Below, in pieces: positions 20,203-37,778 of a DNA stretch of 64,000 bases. Source of the stretch: Paraburkholderia antibiotica (GTDB lineage Bacteria; Pseudomonadota; Gammaproteobacteria; Burkholderiales; Burkholderiaceae); assembly GCF_012927125.1 (NCBI RefSeq), contig NZ_JABBFZ010000004.1, forward strand, positions 1 through 64,000, read 5' to 3'. The translations under genes were made by a program, and so were the position numbers. The first letter of the stretch is position 1, and every line of letters starts with the position of its first letter. The notes beneath the pieces are model-generated. The model searched no databases. It saw only the letters and a list, made by a program, of their open reading frames with translations, and was not told the DNA's origin.

Positions 20203-21990
20203 ATGACAGCATCCGATACACCGTTCTCGCGCCTCCAGCGTCGCCTCGCGCGAGGCGATCTGATCGCCGCGTCCCACGAGATTGCCGACTGGATGAAACG
20301 TCAGCCCGCCGATGCCGGCGCGTTGACCGCGCATGCCATCGTGCTGCGCGTGCTGGGCCGTTATCCGGAGGCGGCCGCGGCACTCGAATGCGCCGTTGCG
20401 ATCGCTCCGGAGTTCGCGCCGACGCTGGTCGAGCTGGCCCGCCTCGCGCGTCGCGACGGCCGGTTCGAGCAGGCCCTTGCATGGTACGAGCAGGCCCATC
20501 GCCACGCGCCCGACGAAACCGGCTGGTTCGAGGAGTGGTGCGAACTGCTGACGCGACTCGGACGCGCCGACTATGCTGCCGAAGTCGCGAGCGGCTGGTG
20601 CGAGCGGGAGCCGGCCTCGCCGCAAGCCTGGTTTCTGCTCGCACTGATCAGTCAGCAACGCGGTGCGTTGACGGCCGCGCTGGACGCCTATCAACGCGTC
20701 CGTGCGCTCGACCCGGATTATCCGATGCTGAGCAACAATCTGTCCGCGTTGCATATTTCGCTCGGCGATCACAAAGCCGCGCTGCGCTTTTGTGAGGACG
20801 CGATTCGTCGCGAGCCGAACTCCGCGTTGCCGTGGATCAATGCGGCGACCGCGTGGTTGCGGCGACGGCAACCGGAGAACGCGCTGCTCGCCGCGCAAAG
20901 GGCCTGCACGCTGTCGCCGGGTTCTGGGTCGGCGCTGCTTGCGCTGAGCAATACGCTGAAGGAGCTGCAGCGCCACGACGAAGCGTTGCAAGTCGTCACG
21001 CGGGCCGCGCAGATGGCGCCCAACGATGCCAAGGTGCAATGGTCGATCGCGATGCTGCAATTGCTGTTCGGCGACTATCCCCATGGCTGGTTGAATCACG
21101 AGGCGCGCTGGGCCGGTTCGCCTGAGTTGGAGCGAGCGTCGCAACCCGGCGACGACAGAAAATGGCGCGGCGAGAATCTGGCCGGCAAGACGCTGCTTGT
21201 GTGGGGCGAGCAGGGCTTCGGCGATGCGATCCAGTACGTGCGCTTCGTGCAGCAGATCGCCGCGCGAGTGCGCAGCGAGGGCGGCGATTTGACGTACTGC
21301 TGTTTTGCGCCGCTGCTGGCGTTGTTCGAGCGCATGCTTACACCGTATGGCGTGCGGGTGCTGCCCGAGGACATGCAGCCGTGGCCGCGGTTCGATTTTC
21401 ATCTGTCGGTGGGCAGTCTGCCGTTGGCGCTGGGCTGCACGCTCGACACGTTGCCGGCGCCGCGGCGCTACCTCGAACCCGATCCGGCGAAGCTGGCGAC
21501 GTGGCGCAACCGCCTGTCGAGGGACCGACGACTCAAGGTCGGGCTCGTGTGGAGCGGCAGTCGCACGCATCAGCGCAATCCGCTGCGCTCGGTGCCGCCC
21601 GCGTCATATGCGCAGACCTTTGCCGACCTGCCGGAGGTCGCGTTCTACAGCCTGCAAATCGATGGTGTGGCCGAGGTCCGCGAGATGGCCTCGGCCGGTC
21701 TGTCGTTGACGGATTACACTGGGGAACTCCACTCGTTCGACGACACGGCCGCGCTGATCGGCAATCTCGATGTCGTGATTACGGTCTGCACATCGCTCGC
21801 GCATCTATGCGGTGCGCTTGGCGTGCGCACGTGGTTGCTGCTCGACATCAATCCGCACTGGGCATGGATGCTGGCGCGTCGCGACAGTGCATGGTATCCG
21901 TCGTTGACGCTTTACCGGCAACAGCAGTACGAGGACTGGTCGCCGGTGCTGGCGCAGGTGCGCGCCGATCTGCTCGGGCTGCTGCCTTAG
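20203..21990 (+). CDS. TPR-containing glycosyltransferase-like protein
   Basis: A 595-residue cytoplasmic protein. Residues 1-300 are tandem tetratricopeptide repeats (for example EAAAALECAVAIAPEFAPTL, EQALAWYEQAHRHAPDE, ALDAYQRVRALDPDYPML). The C-terminal 290 residues resemble GT-B heptosyltransferase/OGT-like enzymes: KTLLVWGEQGFGDAIQYVRF, LKVGLVWSGSRTHQRNPLRS and NLDVVITVCTSLAHLCGALG, the last being a nucleotide-sugar-site pattern. TPR-glycosyltransferases of this type commonly modify large adhesins. It lies 960 bp upstream of the giant autotransporter on the same strand, which supports that role by context only. Confidence 0.82.
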   Translation: MTASDTPFSRLQRRLARGDLIAASHEIADWMKRQPADAGALTAHAIVLRVLGRYPEAAAALECAVAIAPEFAPTLVELARLARRDGRFEQALAWYEQAHRHAPDETGWFEEWCELLTRLGRADYAAEVASGWCEREPASPQAWFLLALISQQRGALTAALDAYQRVRALDPDYPMLSNNLSALHISLGDHKAALRFCEDAIRREPNSALPWINAATAWLRRRQPENALLAAQRACTLSPGSGSALLALSNTLKELQRHDEALQVVTRAAQMAPNDAKVQWSIAMLQLLFGDYPHGWLNHEARWAGSPELERASQPGDDRKWRGENLAGKTLLVWGEQGFGDAIQYVRFVQQIAARVRSEGGDLTYCCFAPLLALFERMLTPYGVRVLPEDMQPWPRFDFHLSVGSLPLALGCTLDTLPAPRRYLEPDPAKLATWRNRLSRDRRLKVGLVWSGSRTHQRNPLRSVPPASYAQTFADLPEVAFYSLQIDGVAEVREMASAGLSLTDYTGELHSFDDTAALIGNLDVVITVCTSLAHLCGALGVRTWLLLDINPHWAWMLARRDSAWYPSLTLYRQQQYEDWSPVLAQVRADLLGLLP

Positions 21991-22086
21991 TCGCGCGTGC
22001 ATGGGGCGCGTCGGGTCGGGTCGAGTCGCGCTGCGGCGGCGCAGCCATCCAGCAAGATCGTTAGCTATCCTGTCGATGATCGGCGT

Positions 22087-22161
22087 TCAGTCGTCGGGCT
22101 GCGGCTGCCGGTATAGACGCGCGACGCCGGGATACCACGGCGAATCGCCGCGCTCCTGCAA
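22087..22161 (-). pseudogene. C-terminal remnant of a second TPR-glycosyltransferase
   Basis: On the minus strand 24 codons before a TGA read LQERGDSPWYPGVARLYRQP and a short acidic end. This matches the characteristic C-terminus of TPR-glycosyltransferases; the intact gene at 20203-21990 has RRDSAWYPSLTLYRQQ in the corresponding place. A TAG lies directly upstream and no further homology is visible, so this is a decayed fragment in opposite orientation. Confidence 0.55.
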
Positions 22162-22439
22162 CTATTTTCGCGCGATCGCGTTGGCGAGAAGCTCGCCCGG
22201 TACGCGGATTGCCGGAGGAGCAGCCTCCTGGAGGGCACCGGCAGACCATCCTGGATCTTGCGCGCAATGGGTCTGCGCTCAGGGGTTTCTTATCGCGGGC
22301 TATTCATAAGAATCCAGGCAAGCCTACCCGATCCCAAGCCGATGACGTGTGCCGCGTGCCGGCACGCGTGAGTGCGGTGTCTGCCGCGATGACGATGTGC
22401 TGACCATCAAATCGGTTCGCCTGCGCGGCGCGCATTTTC

Positions 22440-22948: not shown

Positions 22949-22951
22949 GTG

Positions 22952-25900
22952 ATGAATAAGACATACCGCTCCATCTGGAACGAAGCGCTCGGCGCGTGGG
23001 TTGCCGCATCCGAGCTCGACTCCGCGCGCGGCAAGCCCAATCGTTCGGCAGTCGCCGCGAAGGGCGAGCGCGCCGGACCGAGCGTCGGCCTGCGTCTTCG
23101 TGTCATGAGTGCGCTTGTCGCGCTTGCGGCAGTGGGCGGGTATGCGTCGCCTGCCTATGCGGGCTACGGGATTTTCATCAATGACGGCACCGACGCCGCC
23201 TGTACCTGGACTTTCGACGCCGCTGGTGTATCGGTGATGGGCAACTACGGCGGCAGCAATCCGACGCCGCTCGGAGCGAACTCGATGTCGCTCGGCGGCC
23301 TGGGCGCTGCGACACCGGTGCCGACGGTCACGAACCTCGGCGGAGCGGCCTCGACGATGTGCGTCAGCACCGACAAGGCAACCCAAACCAACCGGGCGCT
23401 CTTTTACGGACCGTCGAGCGGTGTCGGGTCGAACTCGCTGTCGCTTGGCGGCGAGTTGTATGTGAACAGCGGCAATCTCGGTCTGGGCGGCGGCTCGTCG
23501 ACGGGCGCGATGCGCATCGGCAGTACGGCGACGCTGGCGGGCACGAGCGGCAGCAATGCGATTGCAATTGGCGCGGGCGCGGGCGCGACTGCAAGCGGTG
23601 ATAACTCCATTGCGGTGGGCACCGGCGCGGCGGCAAGCGCAGCCGGGGACGTCGCTGTCGGGGAAGGCGCGTCGGCGCAGGGTGGAACTGCCTTCTCAGC
23701 GACCGCCGTGGGTTTTGGTGCGAAGGCCAATGGCCAGGATGCGTCCGCGTTCGGCAATACGTCGCGTGCGGTAGCGAACTATGCGAGCGCGTTCGGCAAC
23801 TTCTCGTCGGCATCGGGGGCTAACTCGGTGGCCTTCGGGAATGCCGCGACTGCGTCCAATGCGGCAGCGACTTCTATCGGCAATTTCGCGACGGCGTCCG
23901 GGGTCGATTCCACAGCCATCGGGACGGGGGGGCAGTCGGGGACTTATGTCGGCCCGATTGCGTCGGGTGCGGGCGCCACGGCAATCGGCGGCAACACGAC
24001 GGTTGGCGCTGCCGCGGCTGCGTCCGACGCGATTGCAATCGGTGGACAGTCTTCCGTGGCAAGCGCGGCAACCTCGGGTATCGCGATTGGCCGTGGGGCA
24101 GCGACGACGGCCGCCTACGGTGTTGCCATGGGCGATGCGGCCAATGCGAGTGTTGCCGGATCGGTTGCCCTGGGCCAGAACGCGACGACGACGTCGACGC
24201 TGTCGGCGGTGACCGGCGGTACGGGAACGGTCAGCAACGCGACGATCGGCACGACGACGTACGGCACGTTTGCAGGCACGAGCTCGTCGGCCGGTGTGGT
24301 GAGCGTCGGCAAGCCCGGCGCCGAGCGTCGGATCCAGAACGTCGCAGCCGGACAGATCAGCGCTTCCAGTACCGATGCGATCAATGGCAGCCAGTTGTAT
24401 ACGGTTGCGAGTACGGTCGGCTCGAGTATCGCGAGTCTGTCGAGCTCGACGTCGACGGCGGTGGGTTCGTTGTCGACCGGTGTGAGCTCGCTGTCGACCG
24501 GATTGAGCACGACGAATAGCACGGTGAGCAGCCTGTCGAGCTCGACGTCGACGGCGGTGGGTTCGTTGTCGACCGGTGTGAGCTCGCTGTCGACCGGATT
24601 GAGCACGACGAATAGCACGGTGAGCAGCCTGTCGAGCTCGACGTCGACGGCAGTGGGATCGCTGTCGACGGGCGTGAGCTCGTTGTCGACTGGTTTGAGC
24701 ACGACGAATAGCACGGTGAGCAGCCTGTCGAGCTCGACGTCGACGGCAGTGGGTTCGTTGTCGACGGGTGTGAGCTCGTTGTCGACCGGTTTGAGCACGA
24801 CGAATAGCAAGGTGAGCAGCCTGTCGAGCTCGACGTCGACAGCGGAGGGTTCGTTGTCGACGGGGGTGAACTCGTTGTCGACGGGTCTGAGCACGACGAA
24901 TAGCACAGTGGGCAGTCTGTCGACGGGTGTGAGCTCGCTGTCGACCGGTTTGAGCACGACGAATAGCAACGTGAACAGTCTTTCGACGTCCACGTCGACG
25001 GGCCTGGCTTCGCTGTCGAGCTCGACGTCGACGACGGCCAGCTCGCTGTCGACGGGCGTGAGCTCGTTGTCGACCGGATTGAGCACGACGAATAGCAATG
25101 TGAGCAGCCTGTCGAGCTCGACGTCGACGGCGGTGGGTTCGTTGTCGACGGGTGTGAACTCGTTGTCGACTGGTTTGAGCACGACCAACAGCAATGTGAA
25201 CAGCCTTTCGACGTCGACGTCGACGGGCCTGGCTTCGCTGTCGAGCTCGACGTCGACGACGGCCAGCTCGCTGTCGACGGGCGTGAGCTCGTTGTCGACC
25301 GGATTGAGCACGACGAATAGCAATGTGAGCAGCCTGTCGAGCTCGACGTCGACGGCGGTGGGTTCGTTGTCGACGGGCGTGAGTTCGCTGTCGACTGGTT
25401 TGAGCACGACGAATAGCAACGTGAACAGCCTTTCGACGTCCACGTCGACGGGCCTGGCTTCGCTGTCGAGCTCGACGTCGACGACGGCCAGCTCGCTGTC
25501 GACGGGCGTGAGTTCGCTGTCGACTGGTTTGAGCACGACGAATAGCACGGTGGGCAGCCTGTCGAGCTCGACGTCGACGGCGGTGGGTTCGCTGTCGACG
25601 GGTGTGGGCTCGTTGTCGACTGGTTTGAGCACGACGAATAGCACGGTGAACAGCCTGTCGAGCTCGACGTCGACGGCGGTGGGTTCGCTGTCGACTGGCC
25701 TCGGTTCGTTGTCGACCAGCGTGGGTTCCCTGTCGACCGGATTGAGCACGACGAACAACACGGTGAGCAGCCTGTCCAGTTCGGCGTCGACGGGCATCGC
25801 CAACTCCGTGCAATACGACAATCCGCAGCACACCAGCGTCACGCTGGGCGGCGTCGGTGCGACCACGCCGGTGACGCTCACGAACGTCGCGCCGGGCGTG

Positions 25901-28900
25901 AACCCGACGGATGCGGTGAACGTCAGTCAGCTGACGTCGCTGTCGTCGTCCTACTCGACGGGCGTGGGTTCGATCTCCACTTCAACGTCGACCAGCATCA
26001 GTTCGCTGTCGACGAGCTTGAGCACGACCAACAGCACGGTGGATAGCCTTTCGACGTCCACGTCGACGGGTCTGGCTTCGCTGTCGACCTCGACATCGAC
26101 GACGGCCAGCTCGCTGTCGACGGGTGTGGGCTCGTTGTCGACTGGTTTGAGCACGACGAACAGCACGGTGGATAGCCTTTCGACGTCCACGTCGACGGGT
26201 CTGGTGTCGCTGTCGACCTCGACCTCGACGACGGCCAGCTCGCTCTCGACGGGTGTGGGCTCGTTGTCGACTGGTTTGAGCACGACGAACAGCACGGTGG
26301 ATAGCCTTTCGACGTCCACGTCGACGGGTCTGGCTTCGCTGTCGACTTCGACGTCGACGACGGCCAGCTCGCTGTCGACGGGTGTGAGCTCGTTGTCGAC
26401 TGGTTTGAGCACGACGAACAGCACAGTGGATAGCCTTTCGACGTCCACGTCGACGGGTCTGGCGTCGCTGTCGACTTCGACCTCGACGACGGCCAGCTCG
26501 CTGTCGACGGGTGTGGGCTCGTTGTCGACTGGTTTGAGCACGACGAACAGCACGGTGGATAGCCTTTCGACGTCCACGTCGACCGGTCTGGCTTCGCTGT
26601 CGACTTCGACATCGACGACGGCCAGCTCGCTGTCGACGGGTGTGGGCTCGTTGTCGACTGGTTTGAGCACGACGAACAGCACAGTGGATAGCCTTTCGAC
26701 GTCCACGTCGACGGGTCTCGCCTCGCTGTCGACTTCGACGTCGACGACGGCCAGCTCGCTGTCGACGGGTGTCAGCTCGCTGTCGACCGGTCTGAGCACG
26801 ACGAACAGCACGGTGGATAGTCTTTCGACGTCCACGTCGACGGGTCTGGCCTCGCTGTCGACTTCGACGTCGACGACGGCCAGCTCGCTGTCGACGGGCG
26901 TCAGCTCGCTGTCGACCGGCCTGAGCACGACGAACAGCACGGTGGATAGTCTTTCGACGTCCACGTCGACGGGTCTGGCCTCGCTGTCGACTTCGACGTC
27001 GACGACGGCCAGCTCGCTGTCGACCAGCGTCAATTCGCTGTCGACCGGCCTGAGCACGACGAACAGCACGGTAGACAGCCTCTCGACGTCCACGTCGACG
27101 GCAGTGGGTTCGCTCTCGACGGGTGTGAGCTCGTTGTCGACTGGCCTGAGCACGACGAATAGCACGGTGGATAGCCTCTCGACCTCCACGTCGACCGGTC
27201 TGGCTTCGCTGTCGACCTCGACATCGACGACGGCCAGCTCGCTGTCGACGGGCGTCAGCTCGTTGTCGACCGGCCTGAGCACGACGAACAGCACGGTGGA
27301 TAGCCTTTCGACGTCCACGTCGACGGGTCTGGCGTCGCTGTCGACTTCGACCTCGACGACGGCCAGCTCGCTGTCGACGGGCGTGAGCTCGCTGTCGACT
27401 GGTTTGAGCACGACGAACAGCACAGTGGATAGCCTTTCGACGTCCACGTCGACGGGTCTCGCTTCGCTGTCGACCTCGACCTCGACGACGGCCAGCTCGC
27501 TGTCGACGGGAGTCAGCTCGTTGTCGACCGGCCTGAGCACGACGAACAGCACGGTGGATAGCCTCTCGACCTCCACGTCGACGGGGCTGGTGTCGCTGTC
27601 GACTTCGACGTCGACGACGGCCAGCTCGCTGTCGACGGGAGTCAGCTCGTTGTCGACCGGCCTGAGCACGACGAACAGCACGGTGGACAGCCTCTCGACC
27701 TCCACGTCGACGGCAGTGGGTTCGCTGTCGACGGGCGTGAACTCGCTGTCGACTGGCCTGAGCACGACCAACAGCACGGTGGATAGTCTTTCGACGTCCA
27801 CGTCGACCGGTCTGGCGTCGCTGTCGACTTCGACGTCAACGACGGCCAGCTCGCTGTCGACCAGCGTCAATTCGCTGTCGACCGGCCTGAGTACGACGAA
27901 CAGCACGGTAGATAGCCTTTCGACGTCTACGTCGACCGGTCTGGCGTCGCTGTCGACCTCGACGTCAACGACGGCCAGCTCGCTGTCGACGGGTGTCAGC
28001 TCGCTGTCGACCGGTCTGAGTACGACCAACAGCACGGTGGACAGCCTCTCGACGTCCACGTCGACGGCAGTGGGTTCGCTCTCGACGGGTGTGAGCTCGT
28101 TGTCGACTGGCCTGAGCACGACGAACAGCACGGTAGACAGCCTCTCGACGTCCACGTCGACGGCAGTGGGTTCGCTCTCGACGGGCGTGAACTCGCTGTC
28201 GACTGGCCTGAGCACGACCAACAGCACGGTGGATAGCCTCTCGACCTCCACGTCGACCGGTCTGGCTTCGCTGTCGACCTCGACATCGACGACGGCCAGC
28301 TCGCTGTCGACCAGCGTCAATTCGCTGTCGACCGGCCTGAGCACGACCAACAGCACGGTGGATAGCCTCTCGACGTCCACGTCGACGGGTCTGGCGTCGC
28401 TGTCGACTTCGACGTCGACGACGGCTAGCTCGCTGTCGACGGGCGTCAGCTCGTTGTCGACCGGCCTGAGCACGACCAACAGCACGGTGGACAGCCTCTC
28501 GACCTCCACGTCGACGGCAGTGGGTTCGCTGTCGACGGGCGTGAACTCGCTGTCGACTGGCCTGAGCACGACGAACAGCACGGTGGATAGTCTTTCGACG
28601 TCCACGTCGACGGGTCTGGCGTCGCTGTCGACTTCGACGTCGACGACGGCCAGCTCGCTGTCGACCAGCGTCAATTCGCTGTCGACCGGCCTGAGCACGA
28701 CCAACAGCACGGTGGATAGCCTCTCGACGTCCACGTCGACGGCAGTGGGTTCGCTCTCGACGGGCGTGAACTCGCTGTCGACTGGCCTGAGCACGACCAA
28801 CAGCACGGTGGACAGCCTCTCGACCTCCACGTCGACGGGTCTGGCCTCGCTGTCGACCTCGACGTCGACGACGGCCAGCTCGCTGTCGACCAGCGTCAAT

Positions 28901-31900
28901 TCGCTGTCGACTGGCCTGAGCACGACCAACAGCACGGTGGATAGCCTCTCGACGTCCACGTCGACGGGGCTGGCGTCGCTGTCGACTTCGACGTCGACGA
29001 CGGCCAGCTCGCTGTCGACGGGCGTCAGCTCGTTGTCGACCGGCCTGAGCACGACGAACAGCACAGTGGACAGCCTCTCGACCTCCACGTCGACGGCAGT
29101 GGGTTCGCTGTCGACGGGCGTGAACTCGCTGTCGACTGGCCTGAGCACGACCAACAGCACGGTGGATAGCCTCTCGACCTCCACGTCGACCGGTCTGGCT
29201 TCGCTGTCGACCTCGACATCGACGACGGCCAGCTCGCTGTCGACCAGCGTCAATTCGCTGTCGACCGGTCTGAGCACGACGAACAGCACAGTGGACAGCC
29301 TCTCGACGTCCACGTCGACGGCAGTGGGTTCGCTCTCGACGGGTGTGAGCTCGTTGTCGACTGGCCTGAGCACGACCAACAGCACGGTGGATAGCCTCTC
29401 GACCTCCACGTCGACCGGTCTGGCTTCGCTGTCGACCTCGACGTCAACGACGGCCAGCTCGCTGTCGACCAGCGTCAATTCGCTGTCGACCGGTCTGAGC
29501 ACGACGAACAGCACGGTAGACAGCCTCTCGACGTCCACGTCGACGGCGGTGGGTTCGCTCTCGACGGGTGTGAGCTCGTTGTCGACTGGCCTGAGTACGA
29601 CGAACAGCACGGTAGATAGCCTTTCGACGTCTACGTCGACCGGTCTGGCTTCGCTGTCGACCTCGACGTCAACGACGGCCAGCTCGCTGTCGACCGGTCT
29701 GAGCACGACGAACAGCACGGTGGATAGTCTTTCGACGTCCACGTCGACGGGTCTGGCCTCGCTGTCGACCTCGACGTCAACGACGGCCAGCTCGCTGTCG
29801 ACCAGCGTCAATTCGCTGTCGACGGGCCTGAGCACGACCAACAGCACGGTAGACAGCCTCTCGACGTCCACGTCGACGGCGGTGGGTTCGCTGTCGACCG
29901 GCGTCAGCTCGTTGTCGACCGGCCTGAGCACGACCAACAGCACGGTAGACAGCCTCTCGACGTCCACGTCGACGGCAGTGGGTTCGCTGTCGACGGGTGT
30001 CAGCTCGTTGTCGACCGGCCTGAGCACGACGAACAGCACGGTGGACAGCCTCTCGACGTCCACCTCGACGGGTCTGGCTTCACTGTCGACCTCAACCTCG
30101 ACCACAGCCAGCTCGCTGTCGACCGGCGTCGTCTCGCTGTCCACCGGCCTGAGCACGACGAACAGCACGATGACCAGCCTGTCCACGTCGACCTCGACTG
30201 GCCTGAGCTCGCTGTCCACGGGTCTGAGCACGACCAACAGCACCGTAGATAGCCTCTCGAGCTCGACCTCGACCGGCCTGAGCTCGCTGTCGACCGGCGT
30301 CAGCTCGTTGTCCACCGGCCTGAGCACGACCAACAGCACGGTAGACAGCCTCTCGACGTCGACCTCGACCGGCCTGGCCTCACTGTCGACCTCGACGTCG
30401 ACGACAGCCAGCTCGTTGTCGACCAGCGTCAATTCGCTGTCGACCGGTCTGAGCACGACCAACAGCACGGTAGACAGTCTCTCGACGTCCACCTCGACGG
30501 GGCTGGCCTCGCTGTCCACGTCGACCTCGACCGGCATCAGTTCGCTGTCCACCGGCATCGACTCCCTGTCGACCGGCGTCAGCTCGCTGTCCACCGGCCT
30601 GAGCACGACGAACAGCACGATCGACAGCCTCTCGACGTCGACTTCGACCAGCCTCACGTCGCTGTCGACCGGCATCGGTTCGCTGTCCACCGGCCTCAGC
30701 ACGACGTTCAGCAATGTTGCGTCGCTGTCGACCGGGCTCGCCAATTCGGTGCAGTACGACAACCCGCAGCACACCAGCGTCACGCTCGGCGGTGCCGGCG
30801 CGACTGCGCCGGTGACGCTGACCAACGTCGCGGCGGGCGTCAACCCGACCGACGCGGTGAACTTCGGGCAACTGACTTCGCTGTCCACCTCGACGGTCTC
30901 GGGCCTCAGCTCGCTGTCGACCGGTCTGGTCACGACCAACAGCACGTTGAATTCGCTGTCGACGTCGACCTCGACGGGCCTCGGCTCGCTGTCGACGAGC
31001 ATCGCGACCACGAACAGCAACGTCAACTCGCTGTCGACCAGCATCGCGACGACCAACAGCAACGTCAGCATGCTGTCGACCGGCATCGCCAACGGCACTG
31101 TGGGTCTGGTGCAGCAGGTCGGCGGCGCGCCGGGCAATGGCGCGATTACGGTCGGTGCGAGCACCGGCGGCACGGTCGTCGACTTCACCGGCACCGACGG
31201 CGCACGCAAGCTGACCGGCGTCGCGGCGGGTACCAACCCGACCGACGCGGTCAACGTGAGCCAGTTGCAGTCGGTCGCATCGGTGGCGTCGAACGCGGTG
31301 CAGTACGACAACGCGAACCACACCAGCGTGACGCTCGGCGGCACCGGCGCCACCTCGGCCGTCGCGCTGACCAACGTCGCGGCCGGCACGGTCAGCTCGA
31401 CCAGCACCGACGCGATCAACGGCAGCCAGCTGTATCAGCTCGAAAGCCAGTTTGGCGCGCTGGTCACCCAGATGACACCGGCGATGCTGTCGGAAGAGGT
31501 CAGCTCGAAGTACGTCGCGGTGAATTCGACCGGCAGTGCGGCGGTCGCGTCGGGCACCGAATCGGTGTCGATCGGCGGCAACTCGCAGGCGAGCGGCACC
31601 AATGCGGTGGCGCTCGGCTCGGGGTCGCAGGCCACGGCGAACAACGCGACGGCGATCGGGGCGAACGCGGTGGTGTCGGCGACGAACTCGGTCGCGATCG
31701 GCGCGGGTTCGGTCGCGAGCCAGGCCAACACGGTGTCGGTGGGCTCGGTCGGCAACGAGCGGACCATTAGCAACGTGGCGCCAGGCGTGAACCCCACCGA
31801 TGCTGCAAACGTTGCGCAGTTGCAGGGCGTACAGCAGAATATCGACAATGTTGCACGCAACGCCTACTCGGGTATCGCGATGGCCGGTGCGCTGGCCGGG

Positions 31901-32086
31901 CTGCCGCAGGTGGAACAGGGCAAGACGTTCCAGCTGGGCGCCGGTGTCGGTAACTACGGCGGCTATACCGCGCTGGCCGTGGGCGGCAGCGCCCGCGTCA
32001 CCGAGAACACCATCGTCAAGATGGGCGTGAGCGCGACGAACGGCAGCAAGCTGCTGATCAACGCCGGCGTCGGGTATTCCTGGTAA
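22952..32086 (+). CDS. Giant YadA-type trimeric autotransporter adhesin, 3,044 aa
   Basis: This is a type Vc secreted adhesin. An extended signal region (MNKTYRSIWNEALGAWV) leads to cleavage after SPAYA near residue 70. Residues about 200-413 are a YadA-like head of SIAVGTGAAAS-type left-handed beta-roll repeats. A neck (STDAINGSQLYTVAS) follows near 473. Residues about 494-2590 form a stalk of LSTGVSS/LSTSTSTGLAS coiled-coil repeats, broken by a VQYDNPQHTSVTLGG module near 949 and followed by near-copies at about 2596 and 2782. A second short head lies at about 2850-2935. The last 100 residues hold the neck-stalk and four-strand YadA membrane anchor, ending in GVGYSW. The ATG at 22952 is preferred over a GTG one codon earlier. 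Three identical chains should form a fibre anchored in the outer membrane. Glycosyltransferase-like genes surround it. Confidence 0.95.
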   Translation: MNKTYRSIWNEALGAWVAASELDSARGKPNRSAVAAKGERAGPSVGLRLRVMSALVALAAVGGYASPAYAGYGIFINDGTDAACTWTFDAAGVSVMGNYGGSNPTPLGANSMSLGGLGAATPVPTVTNLGGAASTMCVSTDKATQTNRALFYGPSSGVGSNSLSLGGELYVNSGNLGLGGGSSTGAMRIGSTATLAGTSGSNAIAIGAGAGATASGDNSIAVGTGAAASAAGDVAVGEGASAQGGTAFSATAVGFGAKANGQDASAFGNTSRAVANYASAFGNFSSASGANSVAFGNAATASNAAATSIGNFATASGVDSTAIGTGGQSGTYVGPIASGAGATAIGGNTTVGAAAAASDAIAIGGQSSVASAATSGIAIGRGAATTAAYGVAMGDAANASVAGSVALGQNATTTSTLSAVTGGTGTVSNATIGTTTYGTFAGTSSSAGVVSVGKPGAERRIQNVAAGQISASSTDAINGSQLYTVASTVGSSIASLSSSTSTAVGSLSTGVSSLSTGLSTTNSTVSSLSSSTSTAVGSLSTGVSSLSTGLSTTNSTVSSLSSSTSTAVGSLSTGVSSLSTGLSTTNSTVSSLSSSTSTAVGSLSTGVSSLSTGLSTTNSKVSSLSSSTSTAEGSLSTGVNSLSTGLSTTNSTVGSLSTGVSSLSTGLSTTNSNVNSLSTSTSTGLASLSSSTSTTASSLSTGVSSLSTGLSTTNSNVSSLSSSTSTAVGSLSTGVNSLSTGLSTTNSNVNSLSTSTSTGLASLSSSTSTTASSLSTGVSSLSTGLSTTNSNVSSLSSSTSTAVGSLSTGVSSLSTGLSTTNSNVNSLSTSTSTGLASLSSSTSTTASSLSTGVSSLSTGLSTTNSTVGSLSSSTSTAVGSLSTGVGSLSTGLSTTNSTVNSLSSSTSTAVGSLSTGLGSLSTSVGSLSTGLSTTNNTVSSLSSSASTGIANSVQYDNPQHTSVTLGGVGATTPVTLTNVAPGVNPTDAVNVSQLTSLSSSYSTGVGSISTSTSTSISSLSTSLSTTNSTVDSLSTSTSTGLASLSTSTSTTASSLSTGVGSLSTGLSTTNSTVDSLSTSTSTGLVSLSTSTSTTASSLSTGVGSLSTGLSTTNSTVDSLSTSTSTGLASLSTSTSTTASSLSTGVSSLSTGLSTTNSTVDSLSTSTSTGLASLSTSTSTTASSLSTGVGSLSTGLSTTNSTVDSLSTSTSTGLASLSTSTSTTASSLSTGVGSLSTGLSTTNSTVDSLSTSTSTGLASLSTSTSTTASSLSTGVSSLSTGLSTTNSTVDSLSTSTSTGLASLSTSTSTTASSLSTGVSSLSTGLSTTNSTVDSLSTSTSTGLASLSTSTSTTASSLSTSVNSLSTGLSTTNSTVDSLSTSTSTAVGSLSTGVSSLSTGLSTTNSTVDSLSTSTSTGLASLSTSTSTTASSLSTGVSSLSTGLSTTNSTVDSLSTSTSTGLASLSTSTSTTASSLSTGVSSLSTGLSTTNSTVDSLSTSTSTGLASLSTSTSTTASSLSTGVSSLSTGLSTTNSTVDSLSTSTSTGLVSLSTSTSTTASSLSTGVSSLSTGLSTTNSTVDSLSTSTSTAVGSLSTGVNSLSTGLSTTNSTVDSLSTSTSTGLASLSTSTSTTASSLSTSVNSLSTGLSTTNSTVDSLSTSTSTGLASLSTSTSTTASSLSTGVSSLSTGLSTTNSTVDSLSTSTSTAVGSLSTGVSSLSTGLSTTNSTVDSLSTSTSTAVGSLSTGVNSLSTGLSTTNSTVDSLSTSTSTGLASLSTSTSTTASSLSTSVNSLSTGLSTTNSTVDSLSTSTSTGLASLSTSTSTTASSLSTGVSSLSTGLSTTNSTVDSLSTSTSTAVGSLSTGVNSLSTGLSTTNSTVDSLSTSTSTGLASLSTSTSTTASSLSTSVNSLSTGLSTTNSTVDSLSTSTSTAVGSLSTGVNSLSTGLSTTNSTVDSLSTSTSTGLASLSTSTSTTASSLSTSVNSLSTGLSTTNSTVDSLSTSTSTGLASLSTSTSTTASSLSTGVSSLSTGLSTTNSTVDSLSTSTSTAVGSLSTGVNSLSTGLSTTNSTVDSLSTSTSTGLASLSTSTSTTASSLSTSVNSLSTGLSTTNSTVDSLSTSTSTAVGSLSTGVSSLSTGLSTTNSTVDSLSTSTSTGLASLSTSTSTTASSLSTSVNSLSTGLSTTNSTVDSLSTSTSTAVGSLSTGVSSLSTGLSTTNSTVDSLSTSTSTGLASLSTSTSTTASSLSTGLSTTNSTVDSLSTSTSTGLASLSTSTSTTASSLSTSVNSLSTGLSTTNSTVDSLSTSTSTAVGSLSTGVSSLSTGLSTTNSTVDSLSTSTSTAVGSLSTGVSSLSTGLSTTNSTVDSLSTSTSTGLASLSTSTSTTASSLSTGVVSLSTGLSTTNSTMTSLSTSTSTGLSSLSTGLSTTNSTVDSLSSSTSTGLSSLSTGVSSLSTGLSTTNSTVDSLSTSTSTGLASLSTSTSTTASSLSTSVNSLSTGLSTTNSTVDSLSTSTSTGLASLSTSTSTGISSLSTGIDSLSTGVSSLSTGLSTTNSTIDSLSTSTSTSLTSLSTGIGSLSTGLSTTFSNVASLSTGLANSVQYDNPQHTSVTLGGAGATAPVTLTNVAAGVNPTDAVNFGQLTSLSTSTVSGLSSLSTGLVTTNSTLNSLSTSTSTGLGSLSTSIATTNSNVNSLSTSIATTNSNVSMLSTGIANGTVGLVQQVGGAPGNGAITVGASTGGTVVDFTGTDGARKLTGVAAGTNPTDAVNVSQLQSVASVASNAVQYDNANHTSVTLGGTGATSAVALTNVAAGTVSSTSTDAINGSQLYQLESQFGALVTQMTPAMLSEEVSSKYVAVNSTGSAAVASGTESVSIGGNSQASGTNAVALGSGSQATANNATAIGANAVVSATNSVAIGAGSVASQANTVSVGSVGNERTISNVAPGVNPTDAANVAQLQGVQQNIDNVARNAYSGIAMAGALAGLPQVEQGKTFQLGAGVGNYGGYTALAVGGSARVTENTIVKMGVSATNGSKLLINAGVGYSW
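24427..25790 (+). repeat. First stalk repeat block of the adhesin (SSLSSSTSTAVGS type)
   Basis: About 1.36 kb of near-identical in-frame repeats within the adhesin gene. The main unit is 96 bp (32 codons), built from an 11-residue piece (LSSSTSTAVGS), a 7-residue piece (LSTGVSS) and a 14-residue piece (LSTGLSTTNSTVSS). Longer 129-bp variants are interspersed. It is separated from the larger array by the VQYDN module. Confidence 0.85.
26036..30166 (+). repeat. Main stalk array: 35 tandem 32/43-codon units
   Basis: Counting units in the translation gives 23 long units of 43 codons (129 bp), 11 short units of 32 codons (96 bp) and one of 36 codons, which sum to exactly 4,131 bp, the length of this interval. 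Long units are 11+11+7+14 residues, short ones 11+7+14, so the array mixes hendecads and heptads, as in coiled coils. Each unit starts TVDSLSTSTST. Copies are almost identical in DNA, which makes length change by recombination likely and assembly from short reads unreliable. Confidence 0.92.
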
Positions 32087-32136
32087 GCGGCACGCGGCGA
32101 GGCAGACGCGGCGCGGTTTGCCTCGCGGTGCAGGAC

Positions 32137-32174
32137 AAAGGCAGGCTCTTGCGGCAACGCGGGAGCCTGTCTTT
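32137..32174 (+). terminator. Hairpin after the adhesin gene
   Basis: A 12-bp stem with one G-U pair (AAAGGCAGGCTC / GAGCCTGTCTTT) and a 14-nt loop starts 50 bp after the adhesin stop codon and ends 18 bp before the first DUF2827 gene. The 3' arm ends in TTT but the U-tract is short, so partial termination that lowers expression of the downstream genes is more likely than a full stop. Confidence 0.5.
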
Positions 32175-32192
32175 ACAACTTATGAACTGAAC

Positions 32193-33359
32193 ATGCGCAT
32201 CGGGATCTCCGTCCTTACTCATGCCGGCCAGAACATCTGGCAGAACGGTCTTGGGCAGAACGTCATCTTTCTGGCCGAGCTGTTTCAACGCCTGCCGTTC
32301 GTGCAATCCGTTGTCCTGATCGATGCGGGCGACCAGGCGGCGATGCCGCCGCAGGTCGACACGAACGCGAAGGCGCTGCGCGTGATGACCCGCGCCGACG
32401 CGACCGATCAGGTCGACGTCATCTTCGAAATGGGCGGCGCGCTCGACGTGCAATGGCTCGATCTGATGCGCAAGCGCGGCAAGAAGGTGGTGTTCTATTG
32501 CTGCGGGCAGCCGTTTGTCGCGCTGGCCGAACCGGCCGTATTCGATAAGCCCACCCATGCGTCGCGCCCGGATCGCTGCGACGAAGTCTGGTATCTGCCG
32601 AAAGACGCGGCGTTCGCGCCGATGCTGCGCATGCTGCATCGTTGCGACGTCCACGAGGTGCCGTTCATCTGGCATCCGCAATTCATCGAGCAGCGCATTC
32701 GGGAAGTCGCGGACATCACCGGGCTGCACTATGGTTTCAAGGCAAGCGAGGGAAGTGGGGCCGGCACTGACGCCGCGCGCGGTTTGCGCGTCGCGATCTT
32801 CGAGCCGAACATCTCGGTCGTGAAGACATCGAGTGTGCCGATGCTGATCTGCGAGGAAGCCTATCGCGCCGATCCGAACTCGGTGCGCATGATGCATGTG
32901 CTGAACACGCTGCACATGAAAGATCATCCGACCATGCTGTATCTCGCGAACTCGCTGAACCTCGTGCGCGAGCACAAGGCGACGTTTCATGGGCGCCACG
33001 ATATCGTCGGCTTCATGGTGCAGCATGCGGACACGGTCGTCTCGCACCAGTGGCAGAACGAGCAGAACTACAGCTACCTCGATGCGCTGTACGGCGACTA
33101 TCCGCTGATCCACAACTCCGCGTGGCTGAAAGACGCCGGCTACTATTACCCGGCCTTTGAAATCCGCCAGGGCGCGGCGCAATTGCGGCAGGCGCTCCAG
33201 CAGCACGCGGCGCAGCTCGACGACTATCGCGCGCGCTCGCAACGCGTGTTCGACGCGGTCGATCCGTTCAGCCAGCGCAATCTCGATGCGCACGCCGAGC
33301 GGCTGCTGCATCTGTGCCGCGGCACGACCTTTATCGCCAACCGCCCGAGCCATTCATGA
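32193..33359 (+). CDS. DUF2827 protein, probable glycosyltransferase (copy 1)
   Basis: A 388-residue cytoplasmic protein that I place in the DUF2827 family from its start (RIGISVLTHAGQNIWQNGLG). The C-terminal half has a GT-B-like donor-site pattern: VAIFEPNISVVKTSSVPMLI, TVVSHQWQNEQNYSYLDAL and YGDYPLIHNSAWLKDAGYYY. The ATG at 32193 starts just at the conserved region; an in-frame start at 32118 would lie in the hairpin area. It is the first of three paralogues directly after the giant adhesin and overlaps the next by ATGA. A role in adhesin glycosylation is inference from context and fold features. Confidence 0.78.
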   Translation: MRIGISVLTHAGQNIWQNGLGQNVIFLAELFQRLPFVQSVVLIDAGDQAAMPPQVDTNAKALRVMTRADATDQVDVIFEMGGALDVQWLDLMRKRGKKVVFYCCGQPFVALAEPAVFDKPTHASRPDRCDEVWYLPKDAAFAPMLRMLHRCDVHEVPFIWHPQFIEQRIREVADITGLHYGFKASEGSGAGTDAARGLRVAIFEPNISVVKTSSVPMLICEEAYRADPNSVRMMHVLNTLHMKDHPTMLYLANSLNLVREHKATFHGRHDIVGFMVQHADTVVSHQWQNEQNYSYLDALYGDYPLIHNSAWLKDAGYYYPAFEIRQGAAQLRQALQQHAAQLDDYRARSQRVFDAVDPFSQRNLDAHAERLLHLCRGTTFIANRPSHS

Positions 33360-34510
33360 ACTCCGCATCAAGCCCATTGTCCGGTGCCCGCAAGCTGCGG
33401 GTCGGCGTGTCGATTTTTGTGCGCAAGGGCGAGCAGTCGCTGTGGGAAAACGGCATCTACCAGAACTGTATTTTCCTGGTGATGCTGCTGATGCGCTCGC
33501 CGCTCGTCGAGTCGACCTGCCTCGTGGCGGGCGGCGGTGGCGGCGAACCCGCCGACGCGAAGAAGTTTCTCGCCGATTCGCCGGTGCCGCTGATCGACAT
33601 GAACGAAGCGGCGAACACGCTCGATGTGATGATCGAAATGAGCGCGCAGCTGTCGCGCGAATGGGTTATCGCGTTTCGCGAGCGCGGCGGCAAGGTCGTG
33701 TCGATGCGGGTCGGCAACGACTACGTGATCGACATCGAGCGGATGGTGTTCGACAAATCCCACGGACTGCTGATTACCGGCGCGCCTTATCATGAGATCT
33801 GGACGCTGCCCGAGTACGAGGTGACCTGTCAGCCGTATTTCGAAAGCCTGTTCCGCTGCCCGGTGCGGCTGATGCCTCATCTGTGGAGTCCGCTGGTACT
33901 GGAGCGCGAAGCGGCGAAGCTGCCGGAGGGCAAGCGCTTCGGCTACCAGCCGGGTCGCCGGCGTTGGCGCGCGGGCGTGTTCGAGCCGAACATCTGCATG
34001 GTGAAAACGAGCTACGTGCCGTTGCTCGCCTGCGAGGCCGCGCATCGCGACAATCCGGACATGCTCGAACACGTGTTCGCCTACAACACGTTTCATCTGA
34101 AGGAGCACGTGGGCTTCCACGGCTTCGCGCGCAGCCTCGATATCGTGCGGCATGGGCTCGCGTCGTTCGAGGGGCGCTTTCCGTTCTGTCAGGTGGTCGC
34201 GTCGGACGTCGACGTGGTCGTGAGCCATCAGTGGGAAAACGCGCAGAATTACGTCTACTACGAAGCGCTGTACGGCGGCTATCCGTTGATCCACAATTCG
34301 CATCTGATCGGCGACTGCGGGTATCGCTATCATGGGTTCGATTGCGAGGAGGGCGGTCAGGCACTGCAGCGCGCGTATGCCGAGCACGACGCCAATTTCG
34401 ATGCGTACCGGCGCACCGCGAATGCACTCATCGCGCAACTCGACCCGGAAAGCGACGCTAACGTCGCCCTTTATACCGACGCCATCGCCAGGCTTTTCGA
34501 TCCCAGCTAA
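33356..34510 (+). CDS. DUF2827 protein, probable glycosyltransferase (copy 2)
   Basis: A 384-residue paralogue of the preceding gene (LRVGVSIFVRKGEQSLWENG at the start, VFEPNICMVKTSYVPLLACE, VVVSHQWENAQNYVYYEALY and GGYPLIHNSHLIGDCGYRY). Its ATG overlaps the preceding stop (ATGA), so the two are translated together. Divergence between the copies is substantial, which suggests separate substrate or linkage specificities rather than a recent duplication. Confidence 0.78.
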   Translation: MNSASSPLSGARKLRVGVSIFVRKGEQSLWENGIYQNCIFLVMLLMRSPLVESTCLVAGGGGGEPADAKKFLADSPVPLIDMNEAANTLDVMIEMSAQLSREWVIAFRERGGKVVSMRVGNDYVIDIERMVFDKSHGLLITGAPYHEIWTLPEYEVTCQPYFESLFRCPVRLMPHLWSPLVLEREAAKLPEGKRFGYQPGRRRWRAGVFEPNICMVKTSYVPLLACEAAHRDNPDMLEHVFAYNTFHLKEHVGFHGFARSLDIVRHGLASFEGRFPFCQVVASDVDVVVSHQWENAQNYVYYEALYGGYPLIHNSHLIGDCGYRYHGFDCEEGGQALQRAYAEHDANFDAYRRTANALIAQLDPESDANVALYTDAIARLFDPS

Positions 34511-34560
34511 GGCCGGCCGGCGTTGCTCGACTCTTATCGACACAGGCGGCGAAATCAGTC

Positions 34561-35139
34561 ATGAACAGGTTCAGTCCACGCGCAACGACCGTCGGCAAAC
34601 TGCTGGCCGCGGGCGCGCTTCTGTCGACGCTTGCGGCGTCTTTCCCGGCGGCGTTCGCACAGGGCGTGCTGGTGCCGCAGGCCGACCAGGGGCCGCGCAA
34701 TTCGCTGATGCAGGCAGCCAGTGCGATCGGCGCGCGACAATGCGCGCCGGCGCTCAACGAGTTGTCGTCGCTGGGCGTGAAAGGCACCACCAATAACGAC
34801 GTGCTGTTCGACTGGGATCGCGCGCGCGGCGGCAATAGCGCGATTTTTTCGCTGATCGGACTGGAGTCGGCGAACGGCAATGCGGCGATGTCGCTGACCG
34901 GTGTGCCCGAGGCGGATGGTTCGTGCTCGGTGTCGGCCGAGCGCATTTCGGTCGAGCCAGCCGATTGCGCGGCGGTGGCCCGCAAGCAGTTGCCCGGTTA
35001 TCAGGGCACGCGCCTGCTGTCGCATATGATGGTCTATACAGACGGCAAAACGCCGGGCTCGTCGGTGTCGCTGATCGATTCGAAGCCGGGCTGTCTGGTG
35101 ATTCGCCGCTATGTGATGTTTCGCAAGGCGCAGCAGTAA
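34561..35139 (+). CDS. Secreted protein with four cysteines, adhesin-locus partner of unknown function
   Basis: A 192-residue protein with a signal peptide (LLAAGALLSTLAASFPAAFA, cleavage near residue 33). The mature part has four cysteines (in RQCAP, GSCSV, PADCAAV and PGCLV), which could form two disulfides in the periplasm. I recognise no domain. It sits between two DUF2827 genes in the same direction, so it is probably made together with the adhesin. A chaperone or assembly role for the adhesin, analogous to SadB for SadA, is possible but speculative. No lipobox is visible. Confidence 0.7.
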   Translation: MNRFSPRATTVGKLLAAGALLSTLAASFPAAFAQGVLVPQADQGPRNSLMQAASAIGARQCAPALNELSSLGVKGTTNNDVLFDWDRARGGNSAIFSLIGLESANGNAAMSLTGVPEADGSCSVSAERISVEPADCAAVARKQLPGYQGTRLLSHMMVYTDGKTPGSSVSLIDSKPGCLVIRRYVMFRKAQQ

Positions 35140-35218
35140 GCAACAGCACGTCAATGCAGTCGGGTGACTGTAGCAGGGCCCGGCGTGAAACCGGAACAAT
35201 CGCGGGGAAAATCAGATC

Positions 35219-36346
35219 ATGAACGGCTTGCGTATCGGCATCACCATTGGCTTGCATCAGCCGAACGAAACGCTCTGGAATAACGGCATCAAACAGAACG
35301 CGGCGTTTCTCGCGGATGCATTGCGTCATTGTCCGAACGTGGCGTCGGTGGCGCTCGTCAATACGACCGCGGTGCCGATTACGCCGGCGCTGCCGTGGGA
35401 CCAGACGCGCTTTCCGACCATCACGTTCGACGCCGCCAAAGACGCGCTCGACGTGCTGATCGAACTCGGCGGTCAGGTCAACGCGGTGCAAACCGACTAT
35501 CTGAAGCAGCGCGGCGTGCGGCTCGTGTCGTATTGCTGCGGCTTCGAGTACATCCATGCGATGGAATCGGTGCTGTTTCGCAAGCCGACCTGGGGCGAGA
35601 ACCTGTTCGTCAACCAGCGCTATGACGATATCTGGATGATCCCGCAGGTCGACCATATCAGCCGCTCGTATTTCGAGGTGCTGCGCCGGCAGACCGCGCG
35701 GGCGGTGCCGTTCGTCTGGAGTCCGATGTTTCTCGACGAGCGCGTGAAGCACCTCGCGAACGCGGGCGTCTACCAGCCGCGCAGCGGTGCGAAGCGTCTG
35801 AGCGTGATGGAGCCGAACATCAACGTGGTGAAGTTCTGTCTCTATCCGGCGCTGATCGCGGAGCTCGTCTACCGGCAGCGGCCGGATAGCGTCGCGTTGT
35901 TGCAGGTCACCAATGCGGACGGCATTGCGCGTGAAAGCAAGGAATTCATCGCGCTGATGAACCAGCTCGACATCGTGCGCAATCACAAGGCCGTGTTTCT
36001 CGGGCGGCACGAAACGCCGGTGTTTCTGGCGGAGAACACCGATATCGTGATCTCCCATCAGCTCGAAAACCCGCTCAATTACTTCTACCTCGAAGTGTGC
36101 TGGCAGGGCTATCCGCTCGTGCACAACGCGCATCTGTGCACGGACCTCGGTTACTACTATCGGGGCAACGACGTGGAAGAGGGCGCGCGCAAGGTGGTCG
36201 AGGCGATCGAAAGTCATGACGCGCATGCGTCGTGGTATCGCGAGAAGCAACGCGCCGCGATTGCCCGTTATCTGCCGGACGATCGCCAACTGGTCGCTAC
36301 CTATGCCGCGTTGCTCGACGATCTGATCGCGCGGCCGTTGCGATAG
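35219..36346 (+). CDS. DUF2827 protein, probable glycosyltransferase (copy 3)
   Basis: A 375-residue third paralogue (LRIGITIGLHQPNETLWNNG; LSVMEPNINVVKFCLYPALI; IVISHQLENPLNYFYLEVCW; GYPLVHNAHLCTDLGYYYRG). It keeps the EPN and SHQ blocks of the other copies but replaces the KTS after EPNIxVV with KFC. GGGGA precedes the ATG. It is separated from copy 2 by the secreted-protein gene. Confidence 0.78.
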   Translation: MNGLRIGITIGLHQPNETLWNNGIKQNAAFLADALRHCPNVASVALVNTTAVPITPALPWDQTRFPTITFDAAKDALDVLIELGGQVNAVQTDYLKQRGVRLVSYCCGFEYIHAMESVLFRKPTWGENLFVNQRYDDIWMIPQVDHISRSYFEVLRRQTARAVPFVWSPMFLDERVKHLANAGVYQPRSGAKRLSVMEPNINVVKFCLYPALIAELVYRQRPDSVALLQVTNADGIARESKEFIALMNQLDIVRNHKAVFLGRHETPVFLAENTDIVISHQLENPLNYFYLEVCWQGYPLVHNAHLCTDLGYYYRGNDVEEGARKVVEAIESHDAHASWYREKQRAAIARYLPDDRQLVATYAALLDDLIARPLR

Positions 36347-36437
36347 TCGCCGGGAGAGCGTCGCGGAGTCCACCGCGAGTGACCGATCCGCTCGCGCGCG
36401 CGTTTGCGCGCGCATCCGTCTGCCAGGGTCTTGCATC

Positions 36438-37778
36438 GTGATCGTACTGAGTCTCTTCTGTCGTGAGGCGCCCGCCAGCCTCGCGAATCATCGGTTTTAC
36501 GCGACGTCGCGCGGCTATCGCCACGAATGGATCGACGCGTCCGCGATGACGGACCAGCTGCAATTGCGCTGCCTGTACAAATACGAGGTCCTGCTCGGCA
36601 CGTTGCGGCGTGCGGGCGACGACGAACTCGTGCTGCTGCTCAGCGAGGATGCGGCGATCGTCGAACCGGTCGCGTTGGACGTGTTGATGCAGGGCCGCGA
36701 CTACCTGCTGGTGACGACGTCCGCGCATCCGCTGCCGCAAACCGACGTGCAGATCTGGCGCAATACGCGAGCCGTTCGCGACAGCGTGCTGCAACTGGTG
36801 AAGCGCTGCCGTCTCGGCGGTACGGCGCTCGAAGCGGAGGCCGGACTGTTCGCCGACTTCGACACGCATCACTTCCTCGAGACGATCGACGACATCTGCC
36901 CGGTCATGCAGACCGGCTACAACTTCGATCCCGCGTGGACCCGCGTGCCGACGTTCGCGGTCAGTATCGACAATATGACTGGCGAGGTGCGCGAAAAGGC
37001 CGCGTGTCCGCGCTTCTCAAACGCGCTGGTCGAGCACCTCAACCGGCACCAGCGCTCGGGTGCGCCGCTGTTTGCGGATTTCATGCCGAGCCGCATTCTG
37101 GCACTCGCGCCGGGCGACGACGCTGCCGCCGGGCGCAGCACTTACAACCCCGGCCATCCGATCGCGCTGATGACGCTCTACACGCCGAATATCGGTGTCT
37201 ATGCGGGCATCGCCGAGCGCAATTTCCGGCGCTATTGCGAACTGCACGGCTACACGCTGTACGTGTATCGCGAGATTCCGCACGAGGTCGGACTGAATGC
37301 CAGCGGCAACTGGTTCAAGCCATGGTTGTTGTACGGCTATATGCAGCATCACGACTGGGTCGTGTGGCTCGATGCGGACGTGCTGATCGGCAATATGCAG
37401 CAGAAACTTGAACCGCTGATGGCAGGCCGCGACACGTTGCTCGCGCACGATGTCGGGCAATGGTCGTTCAATTCGGGCGTGATGGGGTTTCGTCGCACGG
37501 AGCGCAACGCGGCGCTGCTGGATGAGCTGATGCACGAGATCGTGCAGCTGCACGATACGTCGTCCGTCTATGCGAGCAATGGCGACCAGCTGCATTTCAT
37601 CCACGCGCTCGAACGCGCAGGGCTGCTCGACCACGACGCGTTGCTCGACATGGTCACACTCAATACGCCATGGAATTTCCGGCGGCCGGACAGCTTCGCC
37701 GTGCATTACTACGGCATGTGGACGCAGATGCGCGCGCTAATGATGGCGCACGATGAGGCGGGCGGAGTCGAATCCTAG
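36438..37778 (+). CDS. GT34-like (GMA12/MNN10-type) glycosyltransferase
   Basis: A 446-residue protein. The C-terminal 210 residues look like a galactosyl/mannosyltransferase of the GMA12/MNN10 type: IALMTLYTPNIGVYAGIAER, ELHGYTLYVYREIP, NWFKPWLLYGYM, the DxD-type metal/nucleotide-sugar motif VVWLDADVLIGN, and FNSGVMGFRRTERN. The N-terminal 230 residues are unrecognised. The start appears to be GTG at 36438, preceded by AGGG. It is the last gene of the plus-strand adhesin locus. It probably transfers a hexose, perhaps onto the adhesin or an existing glycan. Confidence 0.8.
   Translation: MIVLSLFCREAPASLANHRFYATSRGYRHEWIDASAMTDQLQLRCLYKYEVLLGTLRRAGDDELVLLLSEDAAIVEPVALDVLMQGRDYLLVTTSAHPLPQTDVQIWRNTRAVRDSVLQLVKRCRLGGTALEAEAGLFADFDTHHFLETIDDICPVMQTGYNFDPAWTRVPTFAVSIDNMTGEVREKAACPRFSNALVEHLNRHQRSGAPLFADFMPSRILALAPGDDAAAGRSTYNPGHPIALMTLYTPNIGVYAGIAERNFRRYCELHGYTLYVYREIPHEVGLNASGNWFKPWLLYGYMQHHDWVVWLDADVLIGNMQQKLEPLMAGRDTLLAHDVGQWSFNSGVMGFRRTERNAALLDELMHEIVQLHDTSSVYASNGDQLHFIHALERAGLLDHDALLDMVTLNTPWNFRRPDSFAVHYYGMWTQMRALMMAHDEAGGVES

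Follow-up and report, generated by a model that had tools for sequence, protein, structure and literature searches.

The serine-rich-repeat loci of Gram-positive bacteria hold several Gtf genes and an adjoining GT-B pair beside the gene of a giant Ser-rich fibre, together with an accessory Sec (SecA2/SecY2) and a wall-anchored serine-rich-repeat protein; in these loci GtfB acts beside GtfA as a non-enzyme chaperone or stabiliser. SdgA and SdgB of Staphylococcus act on SD-repeat adhesins. For type V secreted proteins, a review describes two kinds of cytoplasmic enzyme. HMW1C/NGT transfers a single hexose from UDP-hexose, N-linked to NX(S/T), its gene often adjoins that of the type V substrate, and some of these enzymes modify trimeric autotransporters; BAHT (Aah, TibC) O-glycosylate Ser/Thr of an autotransporter and are often encoded alongside it (PMC8151025). 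Here we analyse a window of 64,000 nucleotides, positions 1-64000 of contig 34 in the 7.4 Mb genome of Paraburkholderia antibiotica, in which the gene of a giant trimeric autotransporter adhesin (TAA) with a stalk of SLST repeats is followed by three genes of the family DUF2827 (subfamilies A, B and C; Table 1). It is considered likely that the locus is a dedicated adhesin-glycosylation cassette, in which DUF2827 proteins would act as GT-B enzymes that add sugar to the SLST stalk in the cytoplasm prior to export.

The likeness to HMW1C/NGT lies in an enzyme gene beside a type V substrate, as proposed here for DUF2827, and the difference lies in the substrate, since the NX(S/T) enrichment of HMW1C/NGT substrates is not seen in the DUF2827-linked TAAs. 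No GT41 model was among the Pfam matches of 107 DUF2827 members, Pfam coverage of HMW1C-type enzymes being unconfirmed. BAHT, a sequence family of iron-containing dodecamers, target classical autotransporters such as TibA, whereas the proposed target of DUF2827 is a trimeric coiled coil; moreover, DUF2827 is a separate Pfam family, usually with two or three diverged paralogues per locus. With the serine-rich-repeat loci the likeness is one of logic only, several putative transferases standing here beside a giant Ser/Thr-rich fibre. Those loci are Gram-positive, whereas the window is Gram-negative, its fibre carries a YadA anchor and an ESPR, and the enzymes are DUF2827. An accessory Sec gene was not found among the annotated or Pfam-scanned neighbours, no model search aimed at accessory Sec having been made. 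In the comparison with SdgA/SdgB the identity is 10%, and their target is Gram-positive.

SLST repeats were reported in 2010 for BoaA/BoaB of Burkholderia (PMC2955633), and further accounts report them for BMA1027 with its orthologues (PMC4021183) and for BCAM2418, the last in a paper whose discussion suggests that the Ser/Thr of the repeats may be O-glycosylated (PMC7142374). These are the same repeats as in the window TAA; unlike the window cassette, however, the available portions of these accounts name no enzyme or adjoining DUF2827 gene. As far as these sources go, SLST adhesins and their suspected O-glycosylation are already known. Within the literature searched, novelty seems to lie in the likely role of the enzyme family, in its fold and in the near-obligate pairing; DUF2827 appears there in one paper, a database of cysteines in DUFs, and has no function named in titles or the first lines of abstracts.

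The window TAA, which the original prediction had called a YadA-type adhesin of 3,044 residues, has the four parts of that class, namely ESPR, head repeats, stalk and YadA anchor, each matching a Pfam model. Computed over 2,111 residues, the stalk contains 61.3% Ser+Thr (1,295 residues) and 44 charged residues. Its hydrophobic period of 3.57 residues is near that of a coil of 25 residues per 7 turns, and the repeat units of its DNA include 21, 33, 75, 96 and 129 bp, which correspond to 7, 11, 25, 32 and 43 residues. At the helix rise of 0.15 nm per residue, the stalk would be some 0.3 micrometre long if helical throughout. The TAA is probably the acceptor of the sugar.

Absence of a glycosyltransferase fold in the DUF2827 proteins had been singled out beforehand as evidence that would refute the predicted glycosylation locus, and it was tested by structure prediction of subfamily B. 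The predicted fold of B is GT-B, with full-length structural match to solved GT-B enzymes, including some with small-molecule or lipid acceptors, such as BshA and PimA; the refuting outcome did not occur. The fold assignment depends on the B model because, by sequence, no PDB entry proved related to the DUF2827 profile (best E 0.71), and no further credible family came from Pfam/NCBIfam. A tree built from 81 DUF2827 proteins separates A, B and C as clades, with a few unplaced or long rows; five rows were set aside as outliers or unplaced for the models of the three subfamilies. The window holds one member of each clade, all three matching PF10933, which agrees with the three divergent proteins expected. 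Window A and window B are 34–35% identical, and the nearest relative of window C is 95% identical (Burkholderia sp. SRS-W-2-2016), with proteins of Paraburkholderia at 89%. Nineteen columns, many of them polar, are invariant across the subfamilies. The distances of A, B and C are correlated (Mantel r 0.86–0.93, with 0 of 999 permutations as high).

Linkage of the two gene families was computed in 58 genomes of the same genus, 21 of which contain DUF2827. The genus sample comprised 33 DUF2827 loci, window included, with a fetched stretch of at most 20 kb each, and a YadA anchor was found within the stretch at 26 of them; with 247 anchors in the roughly 464 Mb of the genus sample, a 20-kb stretch would be expected to hold about 0.011. 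The linkage exceeds chance. A pattern search of named genomes gave 346 relatives, and the best 80 loci were kept. They fall in Paraburkholderia, Burkholderia, Caballeronia, Variovorax, Xenophilus, Cupriavidus, Comamonas, Polaromonas, Noviherbaspirillum, Snodgrassella and other Neisseriaceae. An anchor was observed at 63 of the 80, and at eight of the remaining 17 an ORF (open reading frame) with an ESPR start and an SLST stalk is cut by the edge of the locus. The DUF2827–YadA neighbourhood that the original prediction had asked to be searched for is thus a conserved one. A and B are both present in 79 of the 80 named loci; exactly one each of A, B and C occurs in 49, of which 42 have the order A-B-C on one strand. 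A 4-nt overlap of A and B is possible in 45 of 74 pairs, with the start codon closest to the A stop being taken, which favours overlap. As a rule the TAA comes first; OmpA-like and TPR-GT genes may follow it, then come A and B, in many loci a small secreted protein, then C and, optionally, a TPR-GT gene. In the genus loci the TAA lies on the opposite strand in two and downstream in one. In wider samples DUF2827 is rare: with the own genome and G038 included, it occurs in six of 300 genomes of the order and six of 398 of the phylum. Of the six further genomes found in these two samples, four have an anchor at the locus, one has a Ser/Thr-rich ORF running off the contig and one has neither.

If DUF2827 modifies Ser/Thr of the stalk, the linked TAAs are expected to be richer in Ser/Thr than others of the same genome. 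For the linked sets, TAAs more than 8 kb from DUF2827 or shorter than 200 residues after trimming were excluded, as was one of the two TAA ORFs of L037, and 26 genus and 56 named TAAs were used. The 60 unlinked TAAs were hand-picked among the matches listed and are mostly long, 40 from DUF2827 genomes and 20 from elsewhere. A Ser+Thr fraction of at least 0.33 was found in 25 of 26 linked genus TAAs (median 0.446) versus four of 60 unlinked ones, and in 43 of 56 linked TAAs of the named set. The linked mean was higher in all 15 genomes holding both kinds. The charged fraction is 0.028 (genus) and 0.038 (named) in linked TAAs versus 0.097 in unlinked. Five or more SLST tetrapeptides occur in 25/26 genus and 51/56 named linked TAAs, and in 5/40 unlinked TAAs of DUF2827 genomes and 0/20 of DUF2827-free genomes. 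The four Ser/Thr-rich unlinked TAAs all belong to one DUF2827 genome, G049. At least four TAAs with SLST stalks (L160, L211, L212, L214) lie distant from the sole DUF2827 locus of that genome, which looks as though a single set of enzymes acted in trans on many fibres.

N-glycosylation was set aside because the density of NX(S/T) hardly differs between linked and unlinked TAAs. The sequon medians per 100 residues are 2.08 (26 genus) and 1.48 (56 named) for linked TAAs. For unlinked TAAs they are 2.11 and 2.08 in a first run, in which 17 of 20 TAAs were recovered in each of two sets, the anchor model missing three, and 1.83, 1.82 and 1.87 in a second run, in which 20 of 20 were recovered in all three sets.

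Co-occurrence was also computed free of any TAA selection, with a piece of the window stalk searched against the 58 genomes of the own genus. The stalk was detected in 20 genomes, 19 of them with DUF2827, and 36 have neither; the YadA anchor is present in 57 of the 58. Of the 61 genomes of a second genus, 58 contain DUF2827 and 57 the stalk. All three DUF2827-free genomes are without stalk, and the genome with DUF2827 only, G764, gave a single weak stalk match (E 2e-6). With both genera pooled, 76 genomes have both, three DUF2827 only, one the stalk only and 39 neither, which is a strong association and not an exact probability. The dedicated locus around one Ser/Thr-rich fibre suggested by the original prediction is therefore supported by the linkage, the Ser/Thr enrichment of the linked TAAs and the co-occurrence in genomes.

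Several observations weigh against a glycosylation cassette. No Pfam glycosyltransferase model matches any of the 107 DUF2827 members at E up to 1. The position of EX7E, the motif of GT4 enzymes, is occupied in DUF2827 by N295-x7-E/D303. A comparison of DUF2827 with GT4 by hhalign gave 14% probability, far under GT4 against GT4 (score 288), with a GT4 profile of 15 of 20 proteins (four had no ORF of the listed length in the locus and one above 600 aa was dropped). Among the genus loci, seven of 33 have no nearby TAA, and L067 is linked to a TAA without an SLST stalk (Ser+Thr 0.20). In the named set, 13 of 56 linked TAAs fall below 0.33, four of Snodgrassella at 0.16–0.30 included; the others are from another Neisseriaceae, several short pieces cut by contig ends, L105 and a few more. 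Genomes G037 and G056 have DUF2827 and no detected stalk, and G048 is the only one of 119 with a stalk (two matches, best E 5e-17) and without DUF2827. A stalk could be missed, because only the best 40–42 of about 100–430 candidates per genome were scored. Furthermore, the named set of 80 loci overlaps the genus sample in at least 12 contigs, as judged by equal length, and related genomes are not independent, so that p-values overstate the evidence.

Some of these cases have particulars of their own. The low Ser/Thr value of L105 is an artefact of N runs. In the bee-gut symbionts of the genus Snodgrassella (L111, L122, L127, L128) the order is TAA-A-B-C and the stalks are less Ser/Thr-rich, with SLST-like stretches remaining. 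Two genomes with A-B-C loci and no TAA nearby, G010 and G033, hold SLST stalks elsewhere. The A-B-C-type loci L046 and L058, likewise without a nearby TAA, each contain a gene for a large sensor kinase beside a GT34-like gene, and L046 has a response regulator as well; the SLST stalks of these genomes are found on contigs other than those of the two loci. A filing of DUF2827 under CAZy GT4, next to BshA-like enzymes, was rejected since EX7E is replaced; a Glycos_transf_1-type Pfam match does not occur among the 107 members either.

DUF2827 proteins could also be glycosyltransferases with another main acceptor, such as an exopolysaccharide, a part of lipopolysaccharide or a lipid-linked glycan in the same surface programme. 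The acceptors of BshA and PimA among the structural matches would suit this, as would the DUF2827 genes lying away from a TAA in the fetched stretch (L045, L057, L059, L063, L190). Nevertheless, the family tracks the composition of the stalk (20 genomes) and not the mere presence of a TAA (anchor in 57 of 58), and no polysaccharide genes are listed beside the cassette at the two plasmid loci, the only ones annotated; this explanation is unlikely. It is more doubtful still that a lipid-linked oligosaccharide and a general periplasmic O-oligosaccharyltransferase of PglL type glycosylate the stalk, with DUF2827 building or trimming the glycan. One paper mentions that the genus Burkholderia has a conserved pathway of O-glycosylation (PMC13391677), but a general pathway would need no cassette beside each fibre, while the own genome has three loci with eight genes and plasmids of conjugative type carry DUF2827 together with a TAA.

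That the proteins are no enzymes at all, and serve as GT-B-fold chaperones or stabilisers of the repetitive stalk, would fit the altered EX7E motif and the presence of up to three paralogues near the fibre gene; the 19 invariant, largely polar columns are better explained by an active site than by a scaffold, and we consider this role very improbable. Hardly to be expected is a lack of any functional tie, with TAA and DUF2827 being passengers of one mobile cassette and the Ser/Thr-rich stalk a product of DNA repeat expansion. Plasmid-borne copies and tandem repeats in the stalk DNA speak for it. On the other hand, loci of Paraburkholderia, Burkholderia, Caballeronia, Variovorax and Comamonas retain both the linkage and the SLST stalk, and those of Snodgrassella weaker SLST-like stalks, while repeats should turn over; and in G010 and G033 loci without a nearby TAA accompany SLST stalks elsewhere in the genome.

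Sugar transfer to the stalk is thus retained as the preferred explanation, and DUF2827 proteins probably coat the stalk with sugars. By eye, the N-termini of A, B and C show no signal peptide, and therefore a cytoplasmic transfer dependent on nucleotide sugars is the simplest reading. We infer catalysis of the following kind. The enzymes would take sugar from a nucleotide donor in the cytoplasm and place it, presumably in O-linkage, onto Ser/Thr of the SLST stalk of the adjoining TAA ahead of Sec export, in a manner like NGT and BAHT. A and B, a near-constant pair, most likely start or perform the main transfer; they are taken as the core pair because of this constancy and the possible overlap of their genes. 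C and the TPR/GT9-like and GT34-like proteins may extend the glycan or vary it between strains. The sugar could give the almost charge-free coiled-coil surface solubility, stiffness and protease resistance. A wider proposal is tentative, its chance of holding as a whole falling a little short of even: next to NGT and BAHT, A, B and C would make up a third class of glycosyltransferases dedicated to type V proteins, one that places a short O-glycan on hundreds of exposed Ser/Thr per chain and so produces a mucin-like Gram-negative fibre with sugar-dependent solubility; A-B would initiate, C, TPR-GT and GT34 would set the strain-specific glycan, and SLST would be the recognition motif.

The computed gene content of the cassette is collected in Table 1.

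Table 1. Features of the cassette, with positions in the window
Feature	Position	Strand	Description
TPR protein	20203-21990	+	595 aa; Pfam TPR repeats and GT9-like C-terminal domain with VCTS
Trimeric autotransporter adhesin (TAA)	22952-32086	+	3,044 aa from ATG; PF13018, PF05658, PF05662, PF03895
SLST coiled-coil stalk of TAA	24413-30745	+	Residues 488-2598
DUF2827 subfamily A	32193-33359	+	PF10933 E 5e-121; predicted cytoplasmic GT-B glycosyltransferase
DUF2827 subfamily B	33356-34510	+	PF10933 E 9e-143; protein used for fold model (GT-B)
Small secreted/periplasmic protein	34561-35139	+	Four invariant Cys
DUF2827 subfamily C	35219-36346	+	PF10933 E 8e-141; predicted cytoplasmic GT-B glycosyltransferase
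GT34-like protein	36438-37778	+	PF05637 E 2e-9; LDAD in sequence

A frame check found all genes of the cassette on one strand with open reading frames and, together with the Pfam matches, confirmed the single plus-strand block. The A stop and B start overlap in ATGA (4 nt), and the likely starts of A and B fall within the longest ORFs. A promoter and terminator scan gave about the shuffled expectation and was not used. Of the two further enzymes predicted, the TPR-glycosyltransferase stood as a TPR protein, its glycosyltransferase domain being a weak GT9 match below the cut-off (PF01075 E 0.32); the GT34-like enzyme kept its family match and LDAD, the match spanning 68 residues only. The secreted cysteine protein was upheld, its four Cys being conserved in every one of 23 aligned sequences, that of the window among them. 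It has no Pfam or NCBIfam family, and a PDB sequence search gave nothing credible (best E 0.15). A homologue is found at 36 of 80 named loci; as a guess, the protein may help the periplasmic passage of the fibre.

Neither the TPR gene nor the GT34-like gene is a fixed part of the cassette, the latter being an occasional one. The TPR-GT family is present at 12 of 33 genus loci, window included. Among its 17 members VCTS occurs in 12 and xDT(A/G) in four, and the domain is absent in one; the xDT(A/G) form was observed at the same place as VCTS in second copies at L042, L053 and L065 and in one protein of L038, a possible split in donor or function as judged from the motif. GT34-like homologues were found at L046 and L058 (L138 and L136 being the same contigs), L069, L102 and L196. 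TpgA is OmpA-like in nature. It is a peptidoglycan-associated protein encoded with the TAA AtaA of Acinetobacter, according to a review (PMC8151025). OmpA-like genes are similarly found in several DUF2827 cassettes; in the window there is none between the TAA and DUF2827.

The own genome contains three DUF2827 loci with eight DUF2827 genes in total. The other two are G000:C2 (L037, L201) and G000:C11 (L038), and one of them adjoins a tandem pair of giant SLST TAAs, whose ORFs measure 3,624 and 3,586 aa. Cassettes of TAA, A, B and C are also carried by plasmids typed as conjugative in B. glumae (L195) and B. ambifaria (L197). After the former cassette come genes for a peptidyl-prolyl isomerase, an OmpA family protein and a further two TAAs; after the latter come type VI secretion genes. 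In a record of B. cenocepacia the TAA is accompanied by genes for an OmpA-like protein, A, B, another B-like copy, TPR-GT, C and a GT34-like protein. In two Caballeronia loci (L088, L096) dufC reads as two shorter ORFs. At L191:10472-13057 a Ser/Thr-rich (42%) coiled ORF stands directly before the DUF2827 genes and ends without a YadA anchor; it may be a fibre of another type or reflect an error in the sequence.

The analysis offers a possible function for DUF2827, a family present in 58 of 61 genomes of one sampled genus, and would explain the SLST repeats of Burkholderia adhesins. It also gives a way into the question of how a charge-free coiled coil stays soluble. If true, it would add a coiled-coil fibre that is both Gram-negative and glycosylated, and protein glycoengineering would gain a new set of enzymes.

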